From Deltaproteobacteria bacterium (GTDB lineage: Bacteria; Desulfobacterota; Desulfomonilia; UBA1062), in NCBI GenBank assembly GCA_018434685.1, contig JAHDOV010000005.1, positions 64,997 to 128,996 on the forward strand: a DNA stretch of 64,000 nt. Direction: 5' to 3'. A model generated the notes under the pieces. The model was not told the origin of the DNA. It saw nothing but the letters and a program-made list of their open reading frames with translations, and ran no database searches. This document shows, piece after piece, positions 2,789-16,345 of the stretch. Position numbers and translations under genes: made by a program. Numbering within the stretch: the first letter of the stretch is position 1; the number at the start of each line of letters is the position of its first letter.

Positions 2789-3982
2789 CTATACGCTGCC
2801 TGCCATCTGGAATATGGGCAGATACATGGCAACGACGACGAAACCGATGATGCCGCCGAGAAAGACCATGAGCATGGGCTCGAGCGCCGAGGTCAGGGCC
2901 TCAACTGCGGTGTCCACCTCCTCGTCGTAGAAGTCCGCGATCTTTGAGAGCATCTGGTCCATGGCACCGGTGGCTTCACCCACCGCTATCATCTGCACCA
3001 CCATGCCGGGGAATATACCGGTCTGTTCGAGCGGCTCCGACATGGATTTACCCTCGCTGATGGCGGTGCGTACGGTCCGGATGGCCTTTTCCACGATTAC
3101 ATTTCCCGATGTCCTGGCGGTAATCTCCAGGCCGTCCATAATGGGGACTCCGGAAGAGATCATCGTGCCGAGGGTCCTGGTGAACTTTGCCACGGCGACC
3201 TTTTTGATGAGTGGTCCGAAGATCGGCAGTCTCAGGGCGACCTTGTCGGTGTAGTATCTCCCCTTCTCCTGTTTCCTCGACCACTTGAAGGCGACAATCA
3301 GCAGGAAGATGGTGGCAATCATCAGGTACCAGTTGTTCCGGAAGAAGAGGCTCAAGTCCACGATGAGCTGGGTCGGTCCGGGCAGAGAAGAACCGAACTG
3401 TTTGAACATGTCCTGGAATGTCGGGATGACAAAGAGCATGAGGATGGCGACAACGCTGAAGGCAACGCACAGCACGATGATGGGATAGGTCATGGCACCC
3501 TTGACCTTGTTCTTCAGGGCCTCGTTCTTTTCCATATACACGGCGAGTCTGTTGAGGACCGTGTCGAGTACGCCGCCGATCTCCCCTGCCGCTACGAGGT
3601 TCACATAGAGGTTGTCGAACACCTTCGGGTGCTTGCCCAGGGCGTCTGCAAAGGTGCTTCCGCCCTCCACATCCTGCTTTATCTGGGCCAATATCTTCTT
3701 GAAGGTCGGGTTGGGCTGCTGGGATGCGAGGATGTCGAGGCACTGCACGAGCGGGAGCCCTGCATTGATCATGGTAGAGAACTGTCTGGTGAAGATGACG
3801 ATCTCTTTTGTCTTGATCTTCTGTTCAAACAGGGTGATCTGCTTTGCCTTGCCTTTGATCTTTATCGGGATGATGCGCTGGCGTTTCAGCAGCATGGTTA
3901 CCGTTGCCTTGGTATCGGCCTCGATTTCGCCCCTCTTGATATTTCCGTTTGCGAGTTTTCCTTCCCATACGAAAACAGGCAT
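2789..3982 (-). CDS. pilC: Type IV pilus inner-membrane platform protein PilC
   Basis: A 397-residue protein with two type II secretion F (T2SSF) domains, about residues 70-192 and 272-394. It has membrane helices near 170-195, 215-235 and 370-395. Landmarks include FTRQFSTMINAGLPLVQCL and FTRTLGTMISSGVPIMDGL, the two domain starts, and GEIGGVLD/GEATGAMD in each domain. PilC is the inner-membrane platform on which the PilB and PilT motors drive pilus extension and retraction. It lies three bases after pilT, so pilB-pilT-pilC form one operon, closed by a strong terminator. No pilin or prepilin peptidase gene lies nearby. Confidence 0.95.
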   Translation of the reverse strand: MPVFVWEGKLANGNIKRGEIEADTKATVTMLLKRQRIIPIKIKGKAKQITLFEQKIKTKEIVIFTRQFSTMINAGLPLVQCLDILASQQPNPTFKKILAQIKQDVEGGSTFADALGKHPKVFDNLYVNLVAAGEIGGVLDTVLNRLAVYMEKNEALKNKVKGAMTYPIIVLCVAFSVVAILMLFVIPTFQDMFKQFGSSLPGPTQLIVDLSLFFRNNWYLMIATIFLLIVAFKWSRKQEKGRYYTDKVALRLPIFGPLIKKVAVAKFTRTLGTMISSGVPIMDGLEITARTSGNVIVEKAIRTVRTAISEGKSMSEPLEQTGIFPGMVVQMIAVGEATGAMDQMLSKIADFYDEEVDTAVEALTSALEPMLMVFLGGIIGFVVVAMYLPIFQMAGSV

Positions 3983-3985
3983 GTC

Positions 3986-5101
3986 CTATCTCCTATCTTT
4001 GGCGTTCATACCCAAATTCCTGGGCTGAGTTGGTGATGCCATCATCTGTCTGAGTTCATCCGGGTCCATTGACCAACCGAGGGCATCGTCCAGGGATATG
4101 AGCTTGCGGGAAAAGAGGTTGAACAGGGCCTGGTTCATCGTCTGCATGCCGTGCTTTGCCTGCCCGACCTGCATCTGGGAATAGATCTGATGGATTTTAT
4201 CTTCCCGGATGAGGTTCCTGATTGCAGGGGTGGATATCATGACCTCGGAGGCGAGCACGCGCCCCTTCCCGTCTGCTCTCGGGATAAGCTGCTGGGCCAG
4301 GACTGCCTCGAGAACGAATGCCATCTGTGCCCGGATCTGGGACTGTTGATGCGCAGGGAATGCATCCACGACGCGGTTCACGGTCTGTACGGCAGAGTTG
4401 GTATGGAGCGTTGCAAAGACGAGGTGGCCGGTTTCTGCTATGGTGAGCGCCGCCTGCATGGTTTCGAGATCCCGCATCTCCCCGATGAATACCACGTCGG
4501 GGTCCTGGCGGAGGATGTATTTGAGAGCCCGGGTGAAGGTCTTGGTGTCTGAGCCCACCTCTCTCTGGTTTACGAGACATCCCTTGTGTTTGTGCACGAA
4601 CTCGATGGGGTCTTCTATGGTGACGATATGGTCCCGTCGCTCGACATTGATTTTGTCGAGAAAGGCTGCAAGGGTGGTTGATTTACCGCTTCCGGTCGGT
4701 CCGGTCACCAGGATGAGACCCCGGGGAAGAGAGGTAAGGTGGTTCACCACAACCGGTAGGCCAAGATTGTCCAGGGGGACTATGTCAAAGGGGATCATCC
4801 TGAAAACCCCGGCCAATGCGCCCCGCTGGAGGAATATATTTGCCCTGAACCGTGCGATTCCCTTTATTCCGAAAGAGAGGTCGAGTTCCTGTTCTTCCTC
4901 AAACTTGTGCTTTTGTGCCTCGGTGAGGATGGAATAGAGGATCTGTCTCGTGGTCTGGGGATCGAGTACCGGTACGTCGAGCGGATAGAGTTGGCCGCGT
5001 ACGCGTATCTGCGGGGGTGATGCGGTGGTGATGTGCAGATCCGATGCCCCTTTTTCTACCATGGTTTTAAGTAGATCATAGATACTGATGTTGTTTTCCA
5101 A
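3986..5101 (-). CDS. pilT: Type IV pilus retraction ATPase PilT
   Basis: A 371-residue GspE/PilT-family hexameric ATPase that powers pilus retraction (twitching). The Walker A motif GPTGSGKS is at residues 134-141, the Asp box is EDPIEF, Walker B lies in DPDVVFIGEMRD, and the His box is in GHLVFATLHTNSA. The AIRNLIR motif near residue 290 is diagnostic of PilT rather than PilB. It starts 12 bases after pilB and ends three bases before pilC. Confidence 0.96.
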   Translation of the reverse strand: MENNISIYDLLKTMVEKGASDLHITTASPPQIRVRGQLYPLDVPVLDPQTTRQILYSILTEAQKHKFEEEQELDLSFGIKGIARFRANIFLQRGALAGVFRMIPFDIVPLDNLGLPVVVNHLTSLPRGLILVTGPTGSGKSTTLAAFLDKINVERRDHIVTIEDPIEFVHKHKGCLVNQREVGSDTKTFTRALKYILRQDPDVVFIGEMRDLETMQAALTIAETGHLVFATLHTNSAVQTVNRVVDAFPAHQQSQIRAQMAFVLEAVLAQQLIPRADGKGRVLASEVMISTPAIRNLIREDKIHQIYSQMQVGQAKHGMQTMNQALFNLFSRKLISLDDALGWSMDPDELRQMMASPTQPRNLGMNAKDRR

Positions 5102-5113
5102 AGAGTCCTCCTG

Positions 5114-6817
5114 TTAATCTGCCATTGTGGTTCTCAGGATCTCGGAGACAGAGGTTACCCCCTCGAGCACCTTGGTGAGGCCGCTCTGTCTCAAACTCTT
5201 CATCCCTTGACTGATCGCCTGATTCTTGACCTCGGTGGATGATGCCCCCATGAGGATCAGCTCCCGGATCTCGTCGCTGATGGGCATGACTTCATACAGG
5301 GCCACTCGACCTTTGAACCCGCTGTTGCCGCACACGGGACACCCCTTTCCTATATGGCAGGTGGCGTTCTGCGCCGTCTCAGGGTCCATGCCCATCTGGA
5401 TGAGCGTCTCGACAGAGACATCGTCTTTTATCTTGCACTCCTGGCAGACCTTGCGTGCGAGCCTCTGGGCTACGATGAGGTTCACCGAGGATGCCACCAG
5501 GAAAGGTTCTATACCCATGTTCAGCAGCCGGTTGATGGTGGACGGCGCATCGTTGGTATGGAGCGTGGACAGTACGAGGTGACCGGTTAATGCAGCCTTT
5601 ATCCCGATCTCTGCGGTTTCGAAGTCACGGATCTCTCCAACGAGGATGATATCAGGGTCCTGCCTCAGGAATGATCTCAGCGATGAGGCAAAGGAAAGCC
5701 CGATCTCTTCGTGCATCTGGACCTGGTTCACCCCGGGAAGGTTAAATTCCACGGGATCTTCTGCTGTCGAGATATTCCGGTCAATCTGGTTCAGTTCAGA
5801 CAGGGCTGAGTAGAGCGTGGTCGTCTTACCGGAACCGGTGGGGCCGGTAACGAGCACCATGCCCCAGGGTTTATAGATGCCGTCCTTGAAGTTCTTGAGT
5901 GCCTGTTCTTCAAAACCGAGCTTTGTCATGTCGAGCTGCAGGTTGGACTTGTCCAGAATTCTCAAGACGACCTTCTCGCCGAAGAGCGTGGGGAGAACGG
6001 ATACCCGGAATTCCACTTCCTTGCCGCCCTGGATTCGCAGTTTAATCCGCCCGTCCTGAGGCAGCCTTCTCTCGGCGATGTCGAGCTTGGCCATGATCTT
6101 CAGTCTTGACACCAGGGCGTTTTTCAGACGCAACGGCGGTTTCATTGCCTCATAGAGCATCCCGTCGATCCTGAACCGTATGCGCATGAACTTTTCGAAC
6201 GGTTCTATGTGAATGTCACTGGCCCCTTTACGGATGGCATCGACAAGCGTGAGATTCACCAGCTTGATGACAGGTGCCTGGTCTGCCTCTTTTTCGAGAT
6301 CCCCGACATTTACATCATCGCCCTCAGATGCCACCTCTACGGAACCCTGTTCATCCTCCATGCTGCTCAGCGCATCATCGAGCGAGGCTGATTGATCATA
6401 GTAATTGTCCAGAGCCCATTTGAGAGATTCTTCCGAAGTGACATATACGTCTATGGAATAGCCGGTGAGGAATTTGAGATCATCGACGGCAAAGATGTTG
6501 GTGGGATCTGTCATGGCCACCTTGAGGGTGGAGCCGTTTCGTCCAAAGGGAATGGCGTGGTATTTCTGCACGACATTGAGCGGGATGAGCTTGATGACAT
6601 CAGGATTCGGGCTCTTGTTTTTCAGGATGACCGACGGCAGCCCATACTGCTTGCCAAGGAAATCCACGAGCTGTTCTTCGGTAAGATGTCCAAGTTTTAC
6701 GAGCTGGGACCCCAGCCTCGTCCCGGAGGTCTTCTGAGCTTTCTGAGCCTCAAGAAGCTGCTCCGGAGTAATAAGGGCATTCTTGATTAATTGATCACCT
6801 ATACGTTCATTTGCCAT
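5114..6817 (-). CDS. pilB: Type IV pilus extension ATPase PilB
   Basis: A 567-residue extension motor ATPase. It has an N-terminal MshEN/GspE-N domain (about 1-135), an acidic linker (145-180) and the ATPase core with Walker A GPTGSGKT at 325-332. An EDPVEF Asp box and DPDIILVGEIRD Walker B follow. A four-cysteine zinc site (CQEC followed later by CPVC) lies near residues 460-495, as in GspE/PilB. MshEN domains bind c-di-GMP in some relatives; whether this one does cannot be read here. It is first in the pilB-pilT-pilC operon. Confidence 0.95.
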   Translation of the reverse strand: MANERIGDQLIKNALITPEQLLEAQKAQKTSGTRLGSQLVKLGHLTEEQLVDFLGKQYGLPSVILKNKSPNPDVIKLIPLNVVQKYHAIPFGRNGSTLKVAMTDPTNIFAVDDLKFLTGYSIDVYVTSEESLKWALDNYYDQSASLDDALSSMEDEQGSVEVASEGDDVNVGDLEKEADQAPVIKLVNLTLVDAIRKGASDIHIEPFEKFMRIRFRIDGMLYEAMKPPLRLKNALVSRLKIMAKLDIAERRLPQDGRIKLRIQGGKEVEFRVSVLPTLFGEKVVLRILDKSNLQLDMTKLGFEEQALKNFKDGIYKPWGMVLVTGPTGSGKTTTLYSALSELNQIDRNISTAEDPVEFNLPGVNQVQMHEEIGLSFASSLRSFLRQDPDIILVGEIRDFETAEIGIKAALTGHLVLSTLHTNDAPSTINRLLNMGIEPFLVASSVNLIVAQRLARKVCQECKIKDDVSVETLIQMGMDPETAQNATCHIGKGCPVCGNSGFKGRVALYEVMPISDEIRELILMGASSTEVKNQAISQGMKSLRQSGLTKVLEGVTSVSEILRTTMAD

Positions 6818-7520: not shown

Positions 7521-8492
7521 GTGGACGAAGAAGATACATACATGGACGAACAAATACTCTTTGTCGATGATGAAAGCTTTATCCTGGATATAGCCGAATC
7601 CATCTTTGCAGAAGAGGGGATGAAGATCCTTACGGCCGGCAGCGGAGACGAGGCACTCGAGATAGTGAGAGATAACGAGGTGGCCGTCATGGTATCTGAC
7701 AATCACATGCCGGGCATGATGGGCCTGGATCTCCTGTCCAGGGTAAAGGTCATCTCGCCTGATACGGTGAAGATCCTCATGACCGGCTTTGCCGATCTGG
7801 AGACGGCCATTGACGCCATAAACAGGGTGGAAGTGTTCCGCTTTATCGTGAAGCCCTGGGAGAACACGCAGTTGATCGAGCTGGTAAAGGATGCACTCAA
7901 ACGATACCGGCTTATCAGGTCAATCGTCAGGGGAGATGAATCCACCATGCTTTCCCTGGTCCATGCCCTGGAGTTGAAGGATCCGTATACCAGGGGGCAT
8001 TCGGAGCGGGTTGCAGGGTATGCGCTCAGGATAGCCCAGCACCTCCATCTGCCCCTGCCGGCCAGGGATGCGATACGGTATGGCAGCTGGCTGCATGACT
8101 GCGGCAAGATAGGGGTTTCGGAGAGTATCCTCAACAACGAAGGCCCCCTTGATGATGCAGAGATCCATATCGTGCGGAATCATCCCATGTGGGGGGCCGA
8201 AGTGGCTCGTCAGGCCAGGCTTTCAGAGATCATCGTCAATATCATACTGTCTCACCACGAGCGCTATGACGGTAAGGGATATCCATCGGGGCTCAAGGGG
8301 GAGGAGATCCCCATCGAGGCGCGGATCGTTGCCGTGGCCGATATCTACGATGCCCTCACCACGGAAAGGCCCTACCGGAAGGCCTATGATACGGAAAAGG
8401 CCCTCGAGATGCTCATATCCATGAAGGGAAATGTCCTTGACTCCGAGATGGTGGATGTTTTCTCTGAGATCCTGGAAATATCTGAGCCCTGA
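7521..8492 (+). CDS. Response regulator with HD-GYP phosphodiesterase domain
   Basis: A CheY-like receiver (about residues 8-125; phospho-Asp in MVSDNHMPGM) is followed by an HD-GYP domain (about 145-320). The metal-binding HD pair is in WLHDCGKIG, and HHERYDGKGYPSGL carries the HHE and the GYP hallmark. HD-GYP enzymes hydrolyse c-di-GMP, so this should be a phosphorylation-controlled c-di-GMP phosphodiesterase. The first start is GTG at 7521; an ATG at 7542 (MDEQILFV) is equally possible and fits the receiver domain better. No histidine kinase is adjacent. The next gene, an unknown membrane protein, is 184 bases downstream. Confidence 0.9.
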   Translation: MDEEDTYMDEQILFVDDESFILDIAESIFAEEGMKILTAGSGDEALEIVRDNEVAVMVSDNHMPGMMGLDLLSRVKVISPDTVKILMTGFADLETAIDAINRVEVFRFIVKPWENTQLIELVKDALKRYRLIRSIVRGDESTMLSLVHALELKDPYTRGHSERVAGYALRIAQHLHLPLPARDAIRYGSWLHDCGKIGVSESILNNEGPLDDAEIHIVRNHPMWGAEVARQARLSEIIVNIILSHHERYDGKGYPSGLKGEEIPIEARIVAVADIYDALTTERPYRKAYDTEKALEMLISMKGNVLDSEMVDVFSEILEISEP

Positions 8493-8676: not shown

Positions 8677-11600
8677 ATGACGCACCCGATATCAAAGATT
8701 CTATTCGACAGAGAGGATCACGAACTTCTCGTAATCGTGAACGAAGTCCTCAACAGGGATGAGTCGCGCAAGTATATCAAGAATCTGCTCAACCCCTATC
8801 TGCACCCTCATGGCATCAAGGAAATGGCGGCATCGAGGGAATTGCGCATAGCCTATGCCGTGGTTGACCTCCTGAATTCCCTTGAAGTGGGTGAAGCCAA
8901 GGACAGGCTCTCAGCGCTGCGTTCGCTGAAGGAAGAGGTGCTGTACAGCGCGCGCAGCCATCTCAGGAAGAATACCGCACGGGTGCTCATACAGATTATG
9001 AAAAGGCTGGTACGTTCCCGGGGCGATTATGAGAGCCGGCTCAAACTGGCCCATGATTTCCGAATGGCTGTATCGGGCAAGCCGAGGATCATCCGCGAGC
9101 AGCTCAAGAGATATCACCTCCTCGAGATGTCGGAACAGTGGAACCAGATCGCTACGGACGATCATGTGCACGATGTGAACACAAAAGGGAGGAAGACACC
9201 CACCCACCTTATCATGGATGCCTGGATCAAAGGAATTCGAAGGCTCAAGGTCATCTACTACAATTACGTGAGAACCGATGCGGCTGCAGAGCTTCTCGAG
9301 GCAGCGGAGATCATGGGTATCAGGGTGCGCATCGGGGTGGAACTTTCGGCGCGTTTCCGCAACCGGTATGTTCAGCTGATCTGGGCGCCCAGAGGTCTGC
9401 TGGATGCGCAGGACTATCTCCGCTTCCTGGAAGAGCCTGCCATTGCAGAGTTTACCTCCATGGGGCAGAAGGTCTCGCAGTACCGGCAGGGGTATGTCTT
9501 TTCAATCCTGCGGGAATTCAACATGAGACATCGAGATACCATCAGGGAGAACTACGGTCTGGATCTGTCGCCGCTGGATGAAACCGAATTTCTCAGATTT
9601 GTAGGCACCGGGCAGGTATCCATACTGCATCTGGCCGAGTTCATTCACTCGAAGATGCTCCCGTTGATGCAGGCCCGCACCAAGGAGCTGCGGCATCGAT
9701 ACAACAGTGTGACCCGCGAAGAACAGTCAGCGATTGAAGGCCTGGTCAAGGAGATGAATTCCCTCGATTCGGAGGCCATCGTTGAAAAATACCTGAGGCC
9801 TTTGAAAAATCCTAACATCCCCGACCCCAACATCCCCCGGAATGACCCCGATGTTCCCGCGTTGCTCAAATTTACGCCCAGGGAGGTTATCGACAGGCTG
9901 GATGAACTCCATTCAGGGTACAGCATTACACTGGGACTGAGCGGCCTGAACATCGAAGATGTCATTGAACTCCTGTACGACTGCAGGGGTATGATAACGC
10001 ATCTGGAGATCTTCAACCTGAAAGACTATGTGCTCGCAAAGAATCTTCACTATGACCAGATCAATAAACTCCAGAGGGCAATAAACGAAGGCAACGTGAT
10101 CGCGCTCAAGAGAATTCTCCGCGATCTGATCGAAAAACTGGAAGGATCCGATCATGCAGACCGCACGGACAGGATAGAGAAACTCACCCATATCCTGCAC
10201 GATATCGAATCGTTTCAGGCGTATTACAAGTACTCGTTCCTCAAGAGTCGGGTCGGGAGCGATTCTGCAGGACGTTCGCATCACCTTCACGGCATGGGGA
10301 TGGTGATAAAAGATACCCTGCCGCTGCGGGCACAGAGAGAAATCGAGAAATCTCCCGCTTCATCACGGCTGACCGTTCCCGTCAATACAGGGGTCTATCT
10401 GCGGGTAAGTTATGTGCCCGGGCCGAAAAGGAATCCCCGGGTGGCTTCCCTGCATCGGCTGGTGGAGCGTCTGCCGGGATTCAGGTTTGTGGGCAAGAAA
10501 TGTCAGGAAGACTGGGAGATGCTGAGGCACTCGACCCTGATTGGTGACCCGGGGAATGTAGTGACCCTCGGTGGGATCGATCAGGAGGGGGCGAATGAGC
10601 TCTATCTCAACCCGCCTGAGCTGCGCAAGAAGAGAAGCGGTATTTCCTGGAGGTATCTCAACAGTGCTTTAAAAAACTGGATCAAGGTTCTGATAGGGTT
10701 TGTGCCCGCCTTTGCCACCTTCTATCTGACCAAGGACTGGTGGCTGCTTGCCTACTTCGGTGCCTTCATATGGTTCGGGATCACCGGACTGCGCAATATC
10801 CTGCAGTCCGTTCTGGGAGGAGGCGGGGTCCGGCGCTCTCCACTCCTGCGGTGGAATGATTATGTGAGCTGGGAGCGACTGACCGATTCCCTCCTCTTTA
10901 CGGGGTTTTCCGTTCCGCTGCTCGATTACATCGTGAAGACCCTCATCCTCGACCGCGTCTTCGGTGTGACGGTGTCCACGGGGCCGGTGGTGCTCTATTC
11001 GGTGATGGCTCTGACAAACGGCATCTACATATCCACCCATAATGCGTTCAGGGGATTGCAGAAGGGGGCCATTTTCGGCAATTTTTTCCGCACCATCCTT
11101 TCCATACCCCTTGCCGTCGGGTTCAATGCAGTTATCGGCGGCATCCTTGCAGGGTTCGAAGTGCCCGGGATCAATCTGATTCTGCAGAAATGGGCGGCCA
11201 TCATATCCAAGGCTGCGTCTGACTGTGTGGCCGGTCTGATCGAGGGCCTGACCGACCGGTACCAGAACATCCGCATCCGGCTGCGGGATTATCACAGCAA
11301 GCTTTCCCAGCTGTTCGAAACGTACTCCCACATGGAGATCCTGTTTCCCGAATCAGACGTGCTCAAGATGCTCGAATCCCCGGAGAAGTTCATCTGCACT
11401 ATCCATAACGAGGCCTCTGATCTGGAAAAGATCATCATAATCAATGCGCTCGATCTTCTGTACATCTGGATGTATCAGCCCAGAGCCCAGAGTGCCCTGC
11501 AGATGGTCGTGAAGGAGATGTCAGAGGATGAACGTCAGATATTCGTCCGCATGCACTCTGTCCTTGAGCGCAATCGTGAGATCAGCCAGCTCTTTGTTGA

Positions 11601-11691
11601 CGGGGTTGTCGGCAAGAACTTTTCACGAGGCCTGTCGTTTTATCTCGACAGGGCACCAGGATACCTGAATACGATCAAGACCATGGTGTAG
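8677..11691 (+). CDS. Large membrane protein with a degenerate PHP-like domain, function unknown
   Basis: A 1004-residue protein I cannot assign to a named family. Residues 1-150 are helical. Residues 160-235 read like the start of a PHP phosphoesterase domain: DDHVHD (H163, H165), then GRKTPTHLIMDAWIKGI, then GVELS (E222). A later VGSDSAG with following histidines (SHHLHGMG, residues 526-540) resembles the terminal PHP motif GSDxH. The usual TDH motif is missing (IYYNY instead), and about 200 residues are inserted. Membrane helices lie near 670-705, 738-755, 766-785 and 805-825, followed by a helical cytoplasmic tail. Membrane topology plus a PHP-like domain is unusual. It meets ugpE tail to tail, eight bases apart. 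Confidence 0.85.
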   Translation: MTHPISKILFDREDHELLVIVNEVLNRDESRKYIKNLLNPYLHPHGIKEMAASRELRIAYAVVDLLNSLEVGEAKDRLSALRSLKEEVLYSARSHLRKNTARVLIQIMKRLVRSRGDYESRLKLAHDFRMAVSGKPRIIREQLKRYHLLEMSEQWNQIATDDHVHDVNTKGRKTPTHLIMDAWIKGIRRLKVIYYNYVRTDAAAELLEAAEIMGIRVRIGVELSARFRNRYVQLIWAPRGLLDAQDYLRFLEEPAIAEFTSMGQKVSQYRQGYVFSILREFNMRHRDTIRENYGLDLSPLDETEFLRFVGTGQVSILHLAEFIHSKMLPLMQARTKELRHRYNSVTREEQSAIEGLVKEMNSLDSEAIVEKYLRPLKNPNIPDPNIPRNDPDVPALLKFTPREVIDRLDELHSGYSITLGLSGLNIEDVIELLYDCRGMITHLEIFNLKDYVLAKNLHYDQINKLQRAINEGNVIALKRILRDLIEKLEGSDHADRTDRIEKLTHILHDIESFQAYYKYSFLKSRVGSDSAGRSHHLHGMGMVIKDTLPLRAQREIEKSPASSRLTVPVNTGVYLRVSYVPGPKRNPRVASLHRLVERLPGFRFVGKKCQEDWEMLRHSTLIGDPGNVVTLGGIDQEGANELYLNPPELRKKRSGISWRYLNSALKNWIKVLIGFVPAFATFYLTKDWWLLAYFGAFIWFGITGLRNILQSVLGGGGVRRSPLLRWNDYVSWERLTDSLLFTGFSVPLLDYIVKTLILDRVFGVTVSTGPVVLYSVMALTNGIYISTHNAFRGLQKGAIFGNFFRTILSIPLAVGFNAVIGGILAGFEVPGINLILQKWAAIISKAASDCVAGLIEGLTDRYQNIRIRLRDYHSKLSQLFETYSHMEILFPESDVLKMLESPEKFICTIHNEASDLEKIIIINALDLLYIWMYQPRAQSALQMVVKEMSEDERQIFVRMHSVLERNREISQLFVDGVVGKNFSRGLSFYLDRAPGYLNTIKTMV

Positions 11692-11699
11692 AGGAACAG

Positions 11700-12620
11700 T
11701 CACTTTTCCGGTTCCACCAGTCCCTTGACAAACCACCGCTGCATGAAGAGGACCACGAGAACCGGCGGCAGCATGACGATCAATGCCCCGGCGAGTGCGA
11801 CATTCCAGTAAGGCAGGTCATCCGCCGCAGGGATGAGGTTCTGGAGGCCGATGACAGCGGTCATCATCTTGGGGTTCGTCGTAATGAGCAGCGGCCAGAG
11901 ATACTGGTTCCATCCATAGACAAACTCGATCACCACCAGGGCGGCTATATTGGTCTTGGACAGCGGCAGGAGAATCTTCCTGAAGAAGGTCATGGCCGAA
12001 GCCCCGTCCATTTTAGCCGCCTCGCAGAGTTCTTCCGGAACGGTGAGGAAAAACTGACGGAAGAGGAAGGTGCAGGTTGCCGAGGCAACCAGGGGCATGA
12101 TCAGCCCGGTGTAGCTGTCGAGCAGAGACCAATCCAGCCTCAGGTCAATGTCATGTCCCACTATCCAGCCCACGATGCCGTTTAAGTGCAGGAGATCCCA
12201 CAACCCCTGGAACGGTCCCATGATGTTTGCAGCCATTTGATAGGTGGGCAGAATCCTGACCTCTACCGGAAGCATGAGCGTGCAGAACACGGACACAAAG
12301 GCCACGGTCCGGAACCGGTAATCGAAATAAACGATGGAGAAGGCCCCCAGCAGGGATACGGTGATTTTCCCGATGGTAATCCCCGATGCCATGATAAATG
12401 AGTTTAACAGGTTTGTCCCGAGGTTGCCGTTGATCCATGCCGCCTTGATGTTTACCAGGAACTCTCTGCCGGGGATAAGCGGCATGGGAACCCGGGAAAC
12501 CTCGTGTATGGGCAGGGTGGCGGCAATCAGTGCATAGATAATGGGGAACCCGACGATCAGGATCCCGATGATCAGGAAAATGTATGTCAACGTGTCTAAG
12601 ATCGGTGTCTTTTCTATCAT
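11700..12620 (-). CDS. ugpE: sn-Glycerol-3-phosphate type ABC importer permease UgpE
   Basis: A 306-residue MalG-type permease with about six membrane helices. The EAA motif (EELCEAAKMDGASAMTFFRK) contacts the ATPase. Text near the C-terminus (MTAVIGLQNLI, then a W-F-V-K-G-L-V ending) matches UgpE. AGGAG precedes the ATG. Relative to the roughly 281-residue E. coli protein it carries about 25 extra residues around HDIDLRLDWSLLDS, in a loop between helices. It is last in ugpB-ugpA-ugpE. The true substrate could be glycerol-3-phosphate or a glycerophosphodiester. Confidence 0.9.
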   Translation of the reverse strand: MIEKTPILDTLTYIFLIIGILIVGFPIIYALIAATLPIHEVSRVPMPLIPGREFLVNIKAAWINGNLGTNLLNSFIMASGITIGKITVSLLGAFSIVYFDYRFRTVAFVSVFCTLMLPVEVRILPTYQMAANIMGPFQGLWDLLHLNGIVGWIVGHDIDLRLDWSLLDSYTGLIMPLVASATCTFLFRQFFLTVPEELCEAAKMDGASAMTFFRKILLPLSKTNIAALVVIEFVYGWNQYLWPLLITTNPKMMTAVIGLQNLIPAADDLPYWNVALAGALIVMLPPVLVVLFMQRWFVKGLVEPEK

Positions 12621-12625
12621 GGCTC

Positions 12626-13516
12626 CTACCCGGTATACTGCACCTTTTTCTCCACATATTTGAACTGTAAAACCGTGATGACGATAATAAGGGTCATGAG
12701 GACGACCGACTGTGATGATGAGGCCCCGAGGTTGAGCCCGATGAAGCCGTCCTGGTAGACCTTATAGACCAGGATGTTCGTTGCCCCGCCGGGTCCCCCC
12801 TGGGTCATGGTGTGTATTACGCCGAAGGTATCGAAGAATGAATAGATAATATTCATGACCGTTACAAAGAACAGGGTCGGTGAGAGCAGGGGAAGCGTTA
12901 TAGTCCAGAACCTCCTGAAAGGACTGGCCCCGTCGATTGCTGCCGCCTCGATCAGGGACTTGGGGATTGCCTGCATGCCGGCAACAAAGAACACGAAATT
13001 ATAACTGATCTCTTTCCAGGCGCTGGCTATGACAACCATGAAGAGGGCGTCGGATCCGCGCAGGAGGGGATTCCAGTCCATACCGAGCCAGTGTTTTATG
13101 GCATAGGAAACGACACCGTAGGAAGGATGGAGCAGGAAGAGCCAGAGAATACCTGAAATGGCCGGCGCCACCGCATAGGGCCAGATAAGCATCGTGCGGA
13201 TCACGGCCTTTGCCTTGAGCGCACGGTTGGCCATGGTGGCGATGAAGAGCCCCAGACAGATCGATACCGCGGCCACACAGGCACTGAAAAAGAACGTAGT
13301 CATGATGGATTTGAGATACAAGGGATCGGTAAAGAGTATGATGAAATTATCGAACCAGATGAAGGTGTTTCTTCCGCCAAAGGGGTTGCTGCGCATGACC
13401 GACTGCATCAGTCCCTGGAGGGCAGGCCAGTAGAAGAAGGTAAGGGTCACAAGGATCTGCGGCAGTATCAGAAGATACGGCAGGGTCCTGGAAGAAAAGA
13501 CTGATCTCTTTATCAT
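12626..13516 (-). CDS. ugpA: sn-Glycerol-3-phosphate type ABC importer permease UgpA
   Basis: A 296-residue MalF-type permease with six predicted helices. The EAA loop is KSLIEAAAIDGASPFRRF, and the later MTQGGPGGATNILVYKVYQ segment is typical of UgpA. It ends five bases before ugpE. Between ugpB and this gene lies a strong hairpin (13534-13570), so its dose relative to the binding protein is probably lower. The ribosome binding site is weak (GAG only). Confidence 0.93.
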   Translation of the reverse strand: MIKRSVFSSRTLPYLLILPQILVTLTFFYWPALQGLMQSVMRSNPFGGRNTFIWFDNFIILFTDPLYLKSIMTTFFFSACVAAVSICLGLFIATMANRALKAKAVIRTMLIWPYAVAPAISGILWLFLLHPSYGVVSYAIKHWLGMDWNPLLRGSDALFMVVIASAWKEISYNFVFFVAGMQAIPKSLIEAAAIDGASPFRRFWTITLPLLSPTLFFVTVMNIIYSFFDTFGVIHTMTQGGPGGATNILVYKVYQDGFIGLNLGASSSQSVVLMTLIIVITVLQFKYVEKKVQYTG

Positions 13517-13533
13517 AATCTCGTTGCCTACAG

Positions 13534-13570
13534 GGTAACGCTTCCCTGCTCGCGCAGGGGAAGCGTTACC
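13534..13570 (-). promoter_or_regulatory. Intercistronic hairpin between ugpB and ugpA
   Basis: An inverted repeat with arms GGTAACGCTTCCCTGC and GCAGGGGAAGCGTTACC, one bulged G and a four-base loop. It sits 20 bases after the ugpB stop and 17 bases before ugpA. No U-tract follows, so it is not a standard terminator. It more likely stabilises the ugpB message or attenuates the permease genes, as hairpins after binding-protein genes do in mal-type operons. Confidence 0.8.
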
Positions 13571-13590
13571 ACTGTTGTTGTCATGAAGCC

Positions 13591-14919
13591 CTACTTATAT
13601 GTTTTCTCAAACTCCCGCAATTGCTGGTTGCTCCTCTTGGTCGCATCGTCCATGGCCTGTTGCGCTGTCTTGGTGCCGTTCCAGACAAGTTCCAGCTCTT
13701 CGTTGATGATGTTGCGTATCTGGATGAAGTATCCCAGACGGAGACCGCGTGACTGCTTGTTCGGATCGCGGCGTGTCAGCTGTTTGATCCCTACTTCCTG
13801 GTAGGGGAATTCTTTGTAGTACCCTTCCTTCTTCAACTGTTCATAAGCGGCCAGCGTGATCGGGAAATATCCGGTCTCCTTGTGCCAGTATACCTGCATC
13901 TCCGGGGTCGCAAGATGTGCCAGCAAAGCCGCAACGCCCTTGTAATCTCCTTTGTTGTGGCCCTTGAATACCCACAGGGAAGCGCCACCAATGATGCTGT
14001 TCTGGGGCTCTTTCATCCATGCCTCCACCGGCATGGGTGCCACATCCCACTGGAAATCCTTGACCGTTGCCTGGAGTTTGGCGATCTGGCTTACTGAATC
14101 GATGTATACCCCAGCATTCTGTGCGGCAAACTCTGCAGATGGTCCCTGGAATTTCTGTCCGCCGTAGAAGAACCGGTTGTCCTTCATCCAGTCCTTGAGC
14201 ATGGCTATGTGCTTTACCACTGTCTCGTTGTTGATGAGGAGTTCGCAATCCAGGCCTTCGTAACCGTTTGCCTTCGAGGCAAACGGGATGTTGTGCATGG
14301 CGCTGTAGTTTTCCACCTGTGTCCAGGACTGCCAGCCGAAGGTCAACCCACCCTGGACCCCTGATTTCACCAGCTTGGCGGTAATCTCACCCATTTCATC
14401 CCAGGTGACGGGCTTTTCCTTGTCGAGCATGGGGATGCCGGCTTTCTTGAAGAGATCCACATTGTAGTACATGACCGGTGTCGAGGAGTTGAAAGGCATG
14501 GACATGAGGTTTCCATCCTTATCCATGTAGTATGACAGGACCGGCTGGAGATATCCCTTCCAGTCGATTTTGTACCCCTCGTCGTTCATGAGTTGGTAGA
14601 CCGGATAGACAGCGCCGGAGAGCATCATGGTCTGGGTGCCCACCTCGAACGACTGGATAAGGTGCGGCTGTTTTTTTGCCCGGTATGCCGCGACACCGGC
14701 ATTGACCGTCTCATCATAGTTTCCCTTGTAGGTTCCCACCACGACGTATTCACTCTGTGAATCGTTGAATGCCTTGATCATGGTGTCGATGACCTTGCCG
14801 CGGGCGCCCTTCATGGCATGCCACCAGTTGATGGTAATAGGTTCAGCCATGACCTGGCCTGATAAAAAGATCGCTGCTACAACAACTGCAAAACACATCG
14901 TTATCTTACGTGTATTCAT
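13591..14919 (-). CDS. ugpB: Periplasmic sn-glycerol-3-phosphate binding protein UgpB
   Basis: A 442-residue extracytoplasmic solute-binding protein. The signal peptide (residues 1-25, ending GQVMAEP) is followed by ITINWWHAMKGARGK, the typical UgpB mature start. I place the start at 14919: GGGAGG lies eight bases upstream, and a good promoter ends at 14994. An upstream in-frame ATG at 14988 would lie only a few bases from the -10 box and before any ribosome binding site. It delivers the ligand to UgpA/UgpE, powered by UgpC encoded divergently. Confidence 0.93.
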   Translation of the reverse strand: MNTRKITMCFAVVVAAIFLSGQVMAEPITINWWHAMKGARGKVIDTMIKAFNDSQSEYVVVGTYKGNYDETVNAGVAAYRAKKQPHLIQSFEVGTQTMMLSGAVYPVYQLMNDEGYKIDWKGYLQPVLSYYMDKDGNLMSMPFNSSTPVMYYNVDLFKKAGIPMLDKEKPVTWDEMGEITAKLVKSGVQGGLTFGWQSWTQVENYSAMHNIPFASKANGYEGLDCELLINNETVVKHIAMLKDWMKDNRFFYGGQKFQGPSAEFAAQNAGVYIDSVSQIAKLQATVKDFQWDVAPMPVEAWMKEPQNSIIGGASLWVFKGHNKGDYKGVAALLAHLATPEMQVYWHKETGYFPITLAAYEQLKKEGYYKEFPYQEVGIKQLTRRDPNKQSRGLRLGYFIQIRNIINEELELVWNGTKTAQQAMDDATKRSNQQLREFEKTYK

Positions 14920-14993
14920 AAACATGTCCTCCCACATGAATTTGTAGAACTGATCTGTGCCGAACATTGAGTCAGGTTGCCTGTTCATTAAGG

Positions 14994-15247: not shown

Positions 15248-16345
15248 ATGGCTGATGTATTGATAAGAAACGTAGTGAAACGATTCGGCAAGGTCGAGGT
15301 TGTTCACGGGGTAAATCTCGAATTTTACGATAATGAATTCATCGTCCTGGTAGGCCCCTCAGGGTGCGGCAAGTCAACGATTCTGCGCATGATAGCCGGC
15401 CTGGAAAAGATTACCGAGGGGGAAATTCTCATAGACGGAAAGGTCATCAATGATGTCGCCCCCAAGGACAGGGGCATCGCCATGGTGTTTCAGAACTATG
15501 CCCTCTATCCCCACATGAATGTCTTCAACAACATGTCGTTCGGACTCAAGCTGAGCAAAAAGCCCAAGGAGGAGATTGCGAAGAGGGTCAACGAGGTGGC
15601 GGCAATACTGGAACTCGGAGGCCTGCTGCACAGGAAACCCTATGAGCTCTCCGGCGGGCAGCGCCAGAGGGTAGCCATGGGGAGGGCCATGGTCCGCAAC
15701 CCCTCCATCTTTCTCTTTGACGAACCGCTGTCGAACCTCGATGCGAAACTGAGAACCCAGATGCGCACCGAAATAAAACTGCTCCATCAGAAGGTGCAGT
15801 CGAGCATTATCTATGTCACCCACGACCAGGTTGAGGCCATGACGCTTGCCGACAGGATCGTTGTGATGCACGACGGGTATATCGAGCAGGTGGGGGCGCC
15901 GATAGAACTCTTCGAAAAACCGGCAAACACCTTTGTGGCAGGCTTTATCGGGAGCCCGCCCATGAACCTGGTTCCTGCGAGAATAACCCGTGCAGCCACA
16001 GGCCTCCAACTCGAGTTCAATGATAAACTCAGCATACCCATCCCCGCCAAACCGGGTGCAGAGGTAGCGGACGGCCAGGAGGTCATCATGGGCATACGCA
16101 CCGAAGACTTTGCCATCGACATCACGACCAACGGTTTTCCTGATGAGTGGAAGGTGGAAGGCATTGTCGAGGTGGTGGAACCCCTGGGTGGCGAGACGAA
16201 CATGCACATGGATATGCAGGGCGTGAAGTTCACGGCACGCAGCGAGGGGAGACGGATCATCCGCGTCGGCGAAAAGCTCAGGCTCGCCCTGAACCTCAAT
16301 CATCTGCACATATTTGATGCAGAGACCACACGGTCAATTTATTAG
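15248..16345 (+). CDS. ugpC: ABC importer ATPase UgpC
   Basis: A 365-residue MalK-type ATPase. Walker A GPSGCGKST is near residue 37, the Q-loop is VFQNYALYPHMNVF, the signature is LSGGQRQRVAMGRA, Walker B is FLFDEPLSNLDAKLR, and the H-loop is THDQVEAMT. The C-terminal part (about 240-365) holds the TOBE regulatory domain (GSPPMNLVPA at its start). It is transcribed divergently from ugpB-A-E and completes that importer. MalK-type ATPases can also serve several importers. Confidence 0.93.
   Translation: MADVLIRNVVKRFGKVEVVHGVNLEFYDNEFIVLVGPSGCGKSTILRMIAGLEKITEGEILIDGKVINDVAPKDRGIAMVFQNYALYPHMNVFNNMSFGLKLSKKPKEEIAKRVNEVAAILELGGLLHRKPYELSGGQRQRVAMGRAMVRNPSIFLFDEPLSNLDAKLRTQMRTEIKLLHQKVQSSIIYVTHDQVEAMTLADRIVVMHDGYIEQVGAPIELFEKPANTFVAGFIGSPPMNLVPARITRAATGLQLEFNDKLSIPIPAKPGAEVADGQEVIMGIRTEDFAIDITTNGFPDEWKVEGIVEVVEPLGGETNMHMDMQGVKFTARSEGRRIIRVGEKLRLALNLNHLHIFDAETTRSIY

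Follow-up and report, generated by a model that had tools for sequence, protein, structure and literature searches.

PHP domains that bind metal do so through nine coordinating positions, occupied in order by H, H, D/H, H, E, H, C/H, D/N and H (PMC3666897, Table 1). Where the set is full, as in the PHP domain of M. tuberculosis DnaE1, mutation of a single Asp ligand is enough to lose exonuclease activity (PMC5636811). The PHP domain of E. coli DNA polymerase III (Pol III) is a "variant", with five of the nine ligands replaced and with basic residues substituting for metal and phosphate ions in the cleft (PMC3666897).

The protein that we describe here is closest to the group formed by TrpH, RNase AM (Rnm, YciV) and 3',5'-nucleotide bisphosphate phosphatase (structures 3o0f, 9etk and 2yb1). 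It shares with them the fold and strand order and the positions of HxH, GxE and GSD; its helical insert, like theirs, contains a segment resembling GRPHIAR (here GQxSxLHLA). In contrast to that group, five of its nine metal ligands are replaced, about 200 extra residues lie within the domain, and N-terminal helical, six-transmembrane (TM) and C-terminal helical domains are fused to it. The Pol III alpha subunit likewise keeps the PHP fold with several ligands replaced, some by basic residues; our protein differs in having no polymerase, in being a membrane protein, in keeping a different subset of positions (1, 2, 5 and 8), and in its added invariant residues, which suggest an active ligand pocket.

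A conserved membrane protein family without a curated model

The window, a 64,000-nucleotide stretch of a deltaproteobacterial genome, contains the gene as one open frame of 1004 codons, as originally predicted. Its domains are as follows.

8677..11691, + strand: whole gene, membrane protein of 1004 aa with six TM helices and a variant PHP domain (open reading frame and alignment of relatives)
8677..9141, + strand: N-terminal all-helical domain, residues 1-155 (DSSP on the model)
9142..9405, + strand: PHP fold, part one, residues 156-243 (profile comparison, model, structure alignment, conservation)
9406..9873, + strand: helical insert, residues 244-399 (profile comparison, model, conservation)
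9874..10311, + strand: rest of the PHP fold, residues 400-545 (model, structure alignment, conservation)
10312..10641, + strand: poorly conserved beta-containing linker, residues 546-655 (model, comparison with the distant clade)
10642..11271, + strand: six-TM domain, residues 656-865, predicted N-in/C-in (model, conservation, loop charge)
11272..11688, + strand: C-terminal cytosolic helical domain, residues 866-1004, as modelled

The gene is conserved end to end: 82 full-length relatives align over its whole length, and 79 of them are 51-75% identical to the window protein (alignment A1). No curated model used here, from Pfam or NCBIfam, names the 1004-aa protein. Pfam gave no family at E <= 1 for it, PHP (PF02811) included, and the PHP match was likewise absent in seven other family members that we checked. 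Searching the solved structures by sequence with the window protein returned nothing credible, PADLOC gave no match to anti-phage defence, and the open-access literature, which leaves subscription papers mostly outside, describes no membrane-fused PHP family. The family is undescribed in the searchable literature and in the curated family libraries used here.

About 400 relatives are present in GTDB genomes (401 confirmed stretches in contigs). Among the best 80 of these, which we examined, almost all are from Desulfobacterota; the others include one record from candidate division CSSED10-310, around which 2 of 60 genomes had a match, and one labelled Myxococcota. The family thus looks rare outside Desulfobacterota. 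When the phylum was sampled with the main protein as query, 35 of the 297 genomes had a match, four of them weak (E > 1e-4) and at least three of those four being ordinary PHP proteins; with a distant homologue as query, matches were found in 150 of the 291 genomes from one class of Desulfobacterota, a few of them weak. Two or three copies occur in some Desulfovibrio-type genomes. The N-terminal extension of one relative (L099, 1218 aa) appears to come from a spurious reading frame upstream. The family is common in sulfate-reducing bacteria and their relatives, and unstudied.

A PHP fold of the TrpH/RNase AM branch

The motifs that first suggested a PHP domain are borne by the translated frame, with small corrections. 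HVH lies at residues 163-165 and GRKTPTHLIMDAWIKGI at 171-187, as read originally, and the TDH motif is indeed absent. GVELS is present one residue earlier than claimed (220-224, not 221-225). VGSDSAG (526-532) and HHLHG (535-539) are also there, but the histidines of the latter vary and only the G that starts GMG is kept. The insertion of about 200 residues is real as extra length relative to PHP proteins, yet it is divided between the helical insert (~244-399) and a second helical stretch (~456-516).

That the order of these motifs resembles a PHP domain beyond chance is supported by an NCBIfam scan, a translated genome search, profile-profile comparison, and an AlphaFold2 model with structure comparison. 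The unbiased NCBIfam scan matched two PHP models to residues 159-235 at E 0.003 and 0.14, far under their cut-offs: 16.7 of 400 bits for NF041577 (3',5'-nucleoside bisphosphate phosphatase) and 11.4 of 375 bits for NF047791 (RNase RNM). The translated genome search with the window protein also reached ordinary PHP proteins of ~300 aa, over residues 153-231. A profile of 79 family members matched one of 33 TrpH-like PHP proteins at E 1.1e-4 (residues 157-462), improving to E 5.1e-6 when one distant homologue was added to the family profile. This alignment is colinear to residue 325 and places GQxSxLHLA over GRPHIAR, the arrangement that marks the TrpH/RNase AM branch.

The AlphaFold2 model of the window protein (pLDDT 83.9, pTM 0.80) finds PHP enzymes as its top Foldseek matches: 3o0f (E 6.5e-6), RNase AM 9etk and 2yb1, up to E 2.6e-4. 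When re-aligned, 3o0f, 9etk and 2yb1 gave Z 18.9, 17.1 and 17.3 over model residues ~157-621; in the Z 18.9 row 257 of 287 residues are aligned at rmsd 2.9, and the first non-PHP row falls at Z 6.6. In the viral structure library the top rows are mostly polymerase PHP domains, at E 0.006 or above. The three agreeing lines (genome search, profile-profile comparison and model) thus speak against a fold unrelated to the PHP barrel. As modelled, residues ~157-621 are of the PHP superfamily fold, nearest to TrpH/RNase AM-type enzymes.

A remodelled metal centre

We scored the metal positions in 121 members of the main family against the published nine (PMC3666897). Position 1 (H163) is kept in 100%, position 2 (H165) in 94%, position 5 (E222) in 94% and position 8 (D529) in 93%, so that the four residues on which the original prediction turned do not vary freely. 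We take these four to be the alpha-metal ligands of the amidohydrolase/PHP fold. The remaining five positions are lost. Position 3 is K170 in 95% of members, and position 9 is T/A531, with no conserved H or C. Position 4 shows no conserved His, position 6 is the variable Q233 and position 7 is L421 in 93%, these three being placed less surely by the alignments because the surrounding sequence is divergent. The main family therefore keeps four of the nine ligands of an active phosphoesterase, and metal-dependent phosphoesterase activity is not to be assumed.

Even the kept ligands are replaced in places. H165 is Tyr in 7 of the 121 members and D529 is Ser in 5 (Desulfovibrio-type copies), which suggests that metal binding is not universal and makes catalysis at the PHP site doubtful. 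In the Desulfovibrio-type relatives L102-L108, HVY replaces HVH and Ser or Asn replaces D529; two genomes of the same genus (L117 and L118) have a second copy with the usual residues. In another subset (L016-L020 and L036) E222 is Ser, giving GVS for GVE, with HVHD, GRK and GSD retained. A distant clade (L113/L151-L157) keeps positions 1, 2, 5 and 6; it has Glu at position 3, mostly Arg at position 7 (but His in L113/L151), and Ala instead of Asp at position 8.

Other residues hardly vary. Like H163, D166 and G171-R172-K173 are invariant throughout the 121 members of the main family and also in the distant clade, and D161, D181, K185, Q313, H318, E444, N447 and G539-M540-G541 are, like D166 and G171-R172-K173, invariant or nearly so in both. 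They fall in recognisable segments: D161-x-H163-V-H165-D166, T169-K170-G171-R172-K173, D181, K185 and E222 in residues 156-243; GQxSxLHLA (Q313, H318), colinear with the GRPHIAR of TrpH-type PHP proteins, in the insert; and E444-x-F-N447, GSDSxG at 527-532 (D529) and G539-M540-G541 in residues 400-545. With its incomplete and sometimes further depleted ligand set, the family resembles the variant PHP domains of E. coli Pol III, sharing with them the PHP fold, the gaps in the ligand set and the basic replacements (PMC3666897).

A six-helix domain obligately fused to the PHP part

The "four or more" membrane helices expected after the PHP part are there, and number six in the AlphaFold2 model (~663-685, 689-715, 732-761, 770-791, 796-826 and 832-862). 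Mean K+R counts per loop are 2.8, 1.9 and 4.5 inside and 0.6, 0 and 0 outside; from the model and the positive-inside rule, both termini are predicted to be cytosolic. The outer loops, just 3-8 residues long, leave no periplasmic sensor segment.

Membrane linkage was correctly anticipated, but the domain is more than an anchor, being itself a functional unit with strong conservation. Of the 91 residues shared with the distant clade it holds 35, a larger number than in any other segment (the N-terminal helical domain holds 18). By predicted depth, the cytosolic half contains 19 of the 21 polar TM residues conserved in 95% or more of members, as against 10 of the 29 conserved nonpolar ones. The invariant polar residues are R706, N707, S738, T742, H788, N789, R792, N802 and R805, together with K845, S848, D849 and E856. 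When 247 genomes were searched with a profile of the TM region, no copy lacked the PHP part: the two form an obligate fusion.

Modelled alone (pLDDT 81.5), the TM domain met no solved structure at better than E 0.6 in Foldseek, and no re-aligned row exceeded Z 5.8; it has no clear structural match, a missing match being no proof of a new fold. Bestrophin-like channels gave weak rows only (Z 4.0-4.8, rmsd up to 10). We also considered the Lipocone superfamily, which has a four-helix core with His, Glu and Asp in the membrane (PMC12419801). SpecificRecomb (PF10136) was tried as a family for the domain and rejected: comparison with a Comamonas member by hhalign gave E 0.29, with 24 columns aligned, that member having been located with a consensus-like fragment used for that purpose only, and 11 C-terminal regions of the family gave no match to PF10136.

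A reading almost as likely as the one that we prefer below, though itself more likely wrong than right, is that the PHP domain is non-catalytic, like the metal-free one of E. coli Pol III: a structural or a phosphate- or ligand-sensing module that regulates a membrane domain doing the real work in transport, lipid chemistry or signalling. The four kept residues, presumed alpha-metal ligands, argue against it, since they persist in more than 90% of members, beyond structural need. Conversely, it would fit the concentration of shared invariant residues in the TM domain, the paralogues that have lost H165 and D529 and still retain GRK and the TM domain, the Lys at position 3, and the loss of five of nine ligands, the number that is replaced in E. 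coli Pol III too (PMC3666897). Rather unlikely, in our estimate, is a further reading in which the TM domain is a new inner-leaflet catalytic or transport class acting on lipid head groups that bear phosphate, and in which a PHP-derived domain with a single metal, packed against the cytosolic face of the TM domain, controls or completes it.

Gene neighbourhood

No gene order is conserved across relatives, and in most genomes the gene stands alone. Its surroundings in the window are these.

2789..6817, - strand: type IV pilus-like set (pilC-, pilT- and pilB-like, from translations)
7521..8492, + strand: REC-HD-GYP response regulator, just upstream
11700..14988, - strand: ugpE, ugpA and ugpB, glycerol-3-phosphate ABC importer (NCBIfam, above cut-off)
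15248..16345, + strand: ugpC, ATPase of the glycerol-3-phosphate importer (NCBIfam, above cut-off)

The HD-GYP gene, whose best NCBIfam match is the exception model for NosR-family c-di-GMP phosphodiesterases (252.9 bits, below the cut-off of 400), had been proposed as a possible partner. This link was rejected. The HD-GYP gene is the immediate upstream neighbour only in the window genome. Almost every relative has different neighbours, and in L007, at 75% identity, the adjacency is lost as it is in other clades. A c-di-GMP-linked sensor paired with this regulator would draw on that single upstream position; set against the lost adjacency and the missing periplasmic segment, we consider it highly improbable.

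Phosphate-related neighbours recur in several clades. The ugpE-ugpA-ugpB genes are convergent with the PHP-membrane gene across a 9 bp gap, an arrangement repeated in close relatives. In a sister group (L011-L013 and L015) a GDPD gene in the same orientation lies directly downstream, either overlapping or separated by 20-86 bp; in the distant clade (L113, L157) one lies directly upstream. In L113 (2925-6560) the GDPD gene ends one base before the start of the distant homologue, in the same frame, a near-fusion. A DUF47 (PhoU-like) gene precedes the homologue in L020 and L041, and in L041 a gene resembling Pit phosphate transporters comes ahead of the DUF47 gene. Altogether, 8 of 52 close same-strand neighbours in the first locus set were phosphate-related, over four clades. 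Nevertheless, when 40 further loci were checked, none of their 75 immediate neighbours belonged to GDPD, DUF47, Pit or Ugp. About 31-33 of these loci were new, and at least 7 overlapped with the first set. We therefore regard phosphate metabolism as a clade-level hint and do not extend it to the whole family. Among 53 test neighbours, the commonest of the families listed (25 of 110) were histidine-kinase parts and acyl-CoA synthetase-type CoA-binding domains, with 3-4 each. In one Desulfosarcina-like clade (L058, L070, L071, L078, L191 and L192) the gene has a DUF4136 lipoprotein gene upstream of it, in most cases as its direct neighbour.

The GDPD/Ugp glycerophosphodiester pathway is thus adjacent in the window clade and, independently, in the distant clade; it is a neighbour only, not homologous to our protein and not adjacent in most members. 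Such neighbours, together with the TrpH/RNase AM-group fold and the conserved, presumed alpha-site residues, could point to a true metal-dependent phosphoesterase with an altered centre, membrane-tethered and acting for example on glycerophosphodiesters or nucleotides. We find this improbable. Characterised PHP phosphoesterases are trinuclear, and one mutated Asp ligand inactivates the DnaE1 PHP exonuclease (PMC5636811), whereas here positions 3, 4, 6, 7 and 9 are lost and the phosphate context is not general.

Discussion

The original prediction of a membrane-linked PHP-derived enzyme or sensor was right about the PHP fold and about four kept ligands, but did not foresee that the other five of the nine are lost. 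The protein probably represents a new type of membrane enzyme, or of membrane sensor, directed at molecules that bear phosphate. The reading that we tentatively prefer, while holding it somewhat more likely to be wrong than right, is an inner-membrane, cytosol-facing protein that binds, and perhaps processes, a phosphate-bearing and possibly lipid-linked ligand, with the PHP and TM sites cooperating. The PHP fold, the loss of metal ligands, the conservation pattern, the predicted topology and the obligate fusion are computed results, and from them we infer the class of ligand, the cooperation of two sites and any catalysis.

The large N-terminal part of the protein would lie in the cytosol, with the protein anchored in the inner membrane. 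Its PHP barrel, of the TrpH/RNase AM branch, would have a remodelled trinuclear centre in which HxH, E and D probably hold at most one metal. K170, R172, K173, K185 and N447, all invariant or nearly so, may stand in for the lost ligands; a basic and polar set in their place is as expected of a pocket that grips a phosphate-bearing ligand. This pocket would sit above a six-helix domain whose invariant polar residues are predicted to face the cytosol. It may bind or hydrolyse the phosphate moiety of a substrate, possibly membrane-bound, at the inner leaflet, while the membrane pocket may hold, move or process a lipid or co-substrate jointly with the PHP site.

Cooperation of the two sites is consistent with the PHP fold and the invariance of H163, D166 and GRK, with the 35 of 91 shared residues that lie in the TM segment and their bias of polar residues towards the cytosolic side, with a PHP-TM fusion that is obligate in the 247 genomes, and with the phosphate-related neighbours of several clades. 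It is weakened by a phosphate neighbourhood that was not replicated, by the loss of metal ligands in some Desulfovibrio-type copies, and by a membrane domain to which no solved structure shows a clear resemblance and whose topology and depth are predicted, with the help of the positive-inside rule.

The family is an addition to the PHP superfamily, and its membrane domain may turn out to be the more novel of the two parts. Several hundred proteins in many sulfate-reducing and syntrophic bacteria belong to it without a curated model. By joining a remodelled PHP domain to a TM domain of unrecognised fold, they extend the PHP superfamily into the membrane. Moreover, with metal ligands exchanged for invariant basic residues, the family can serve to test how a trinuclear hydrolase may become a one-metal enzyme or a ligand sensor, and the conserved polar TM residues, predicted to face the cytosol, point to an uncharacterised membrane activity in these bacteria.
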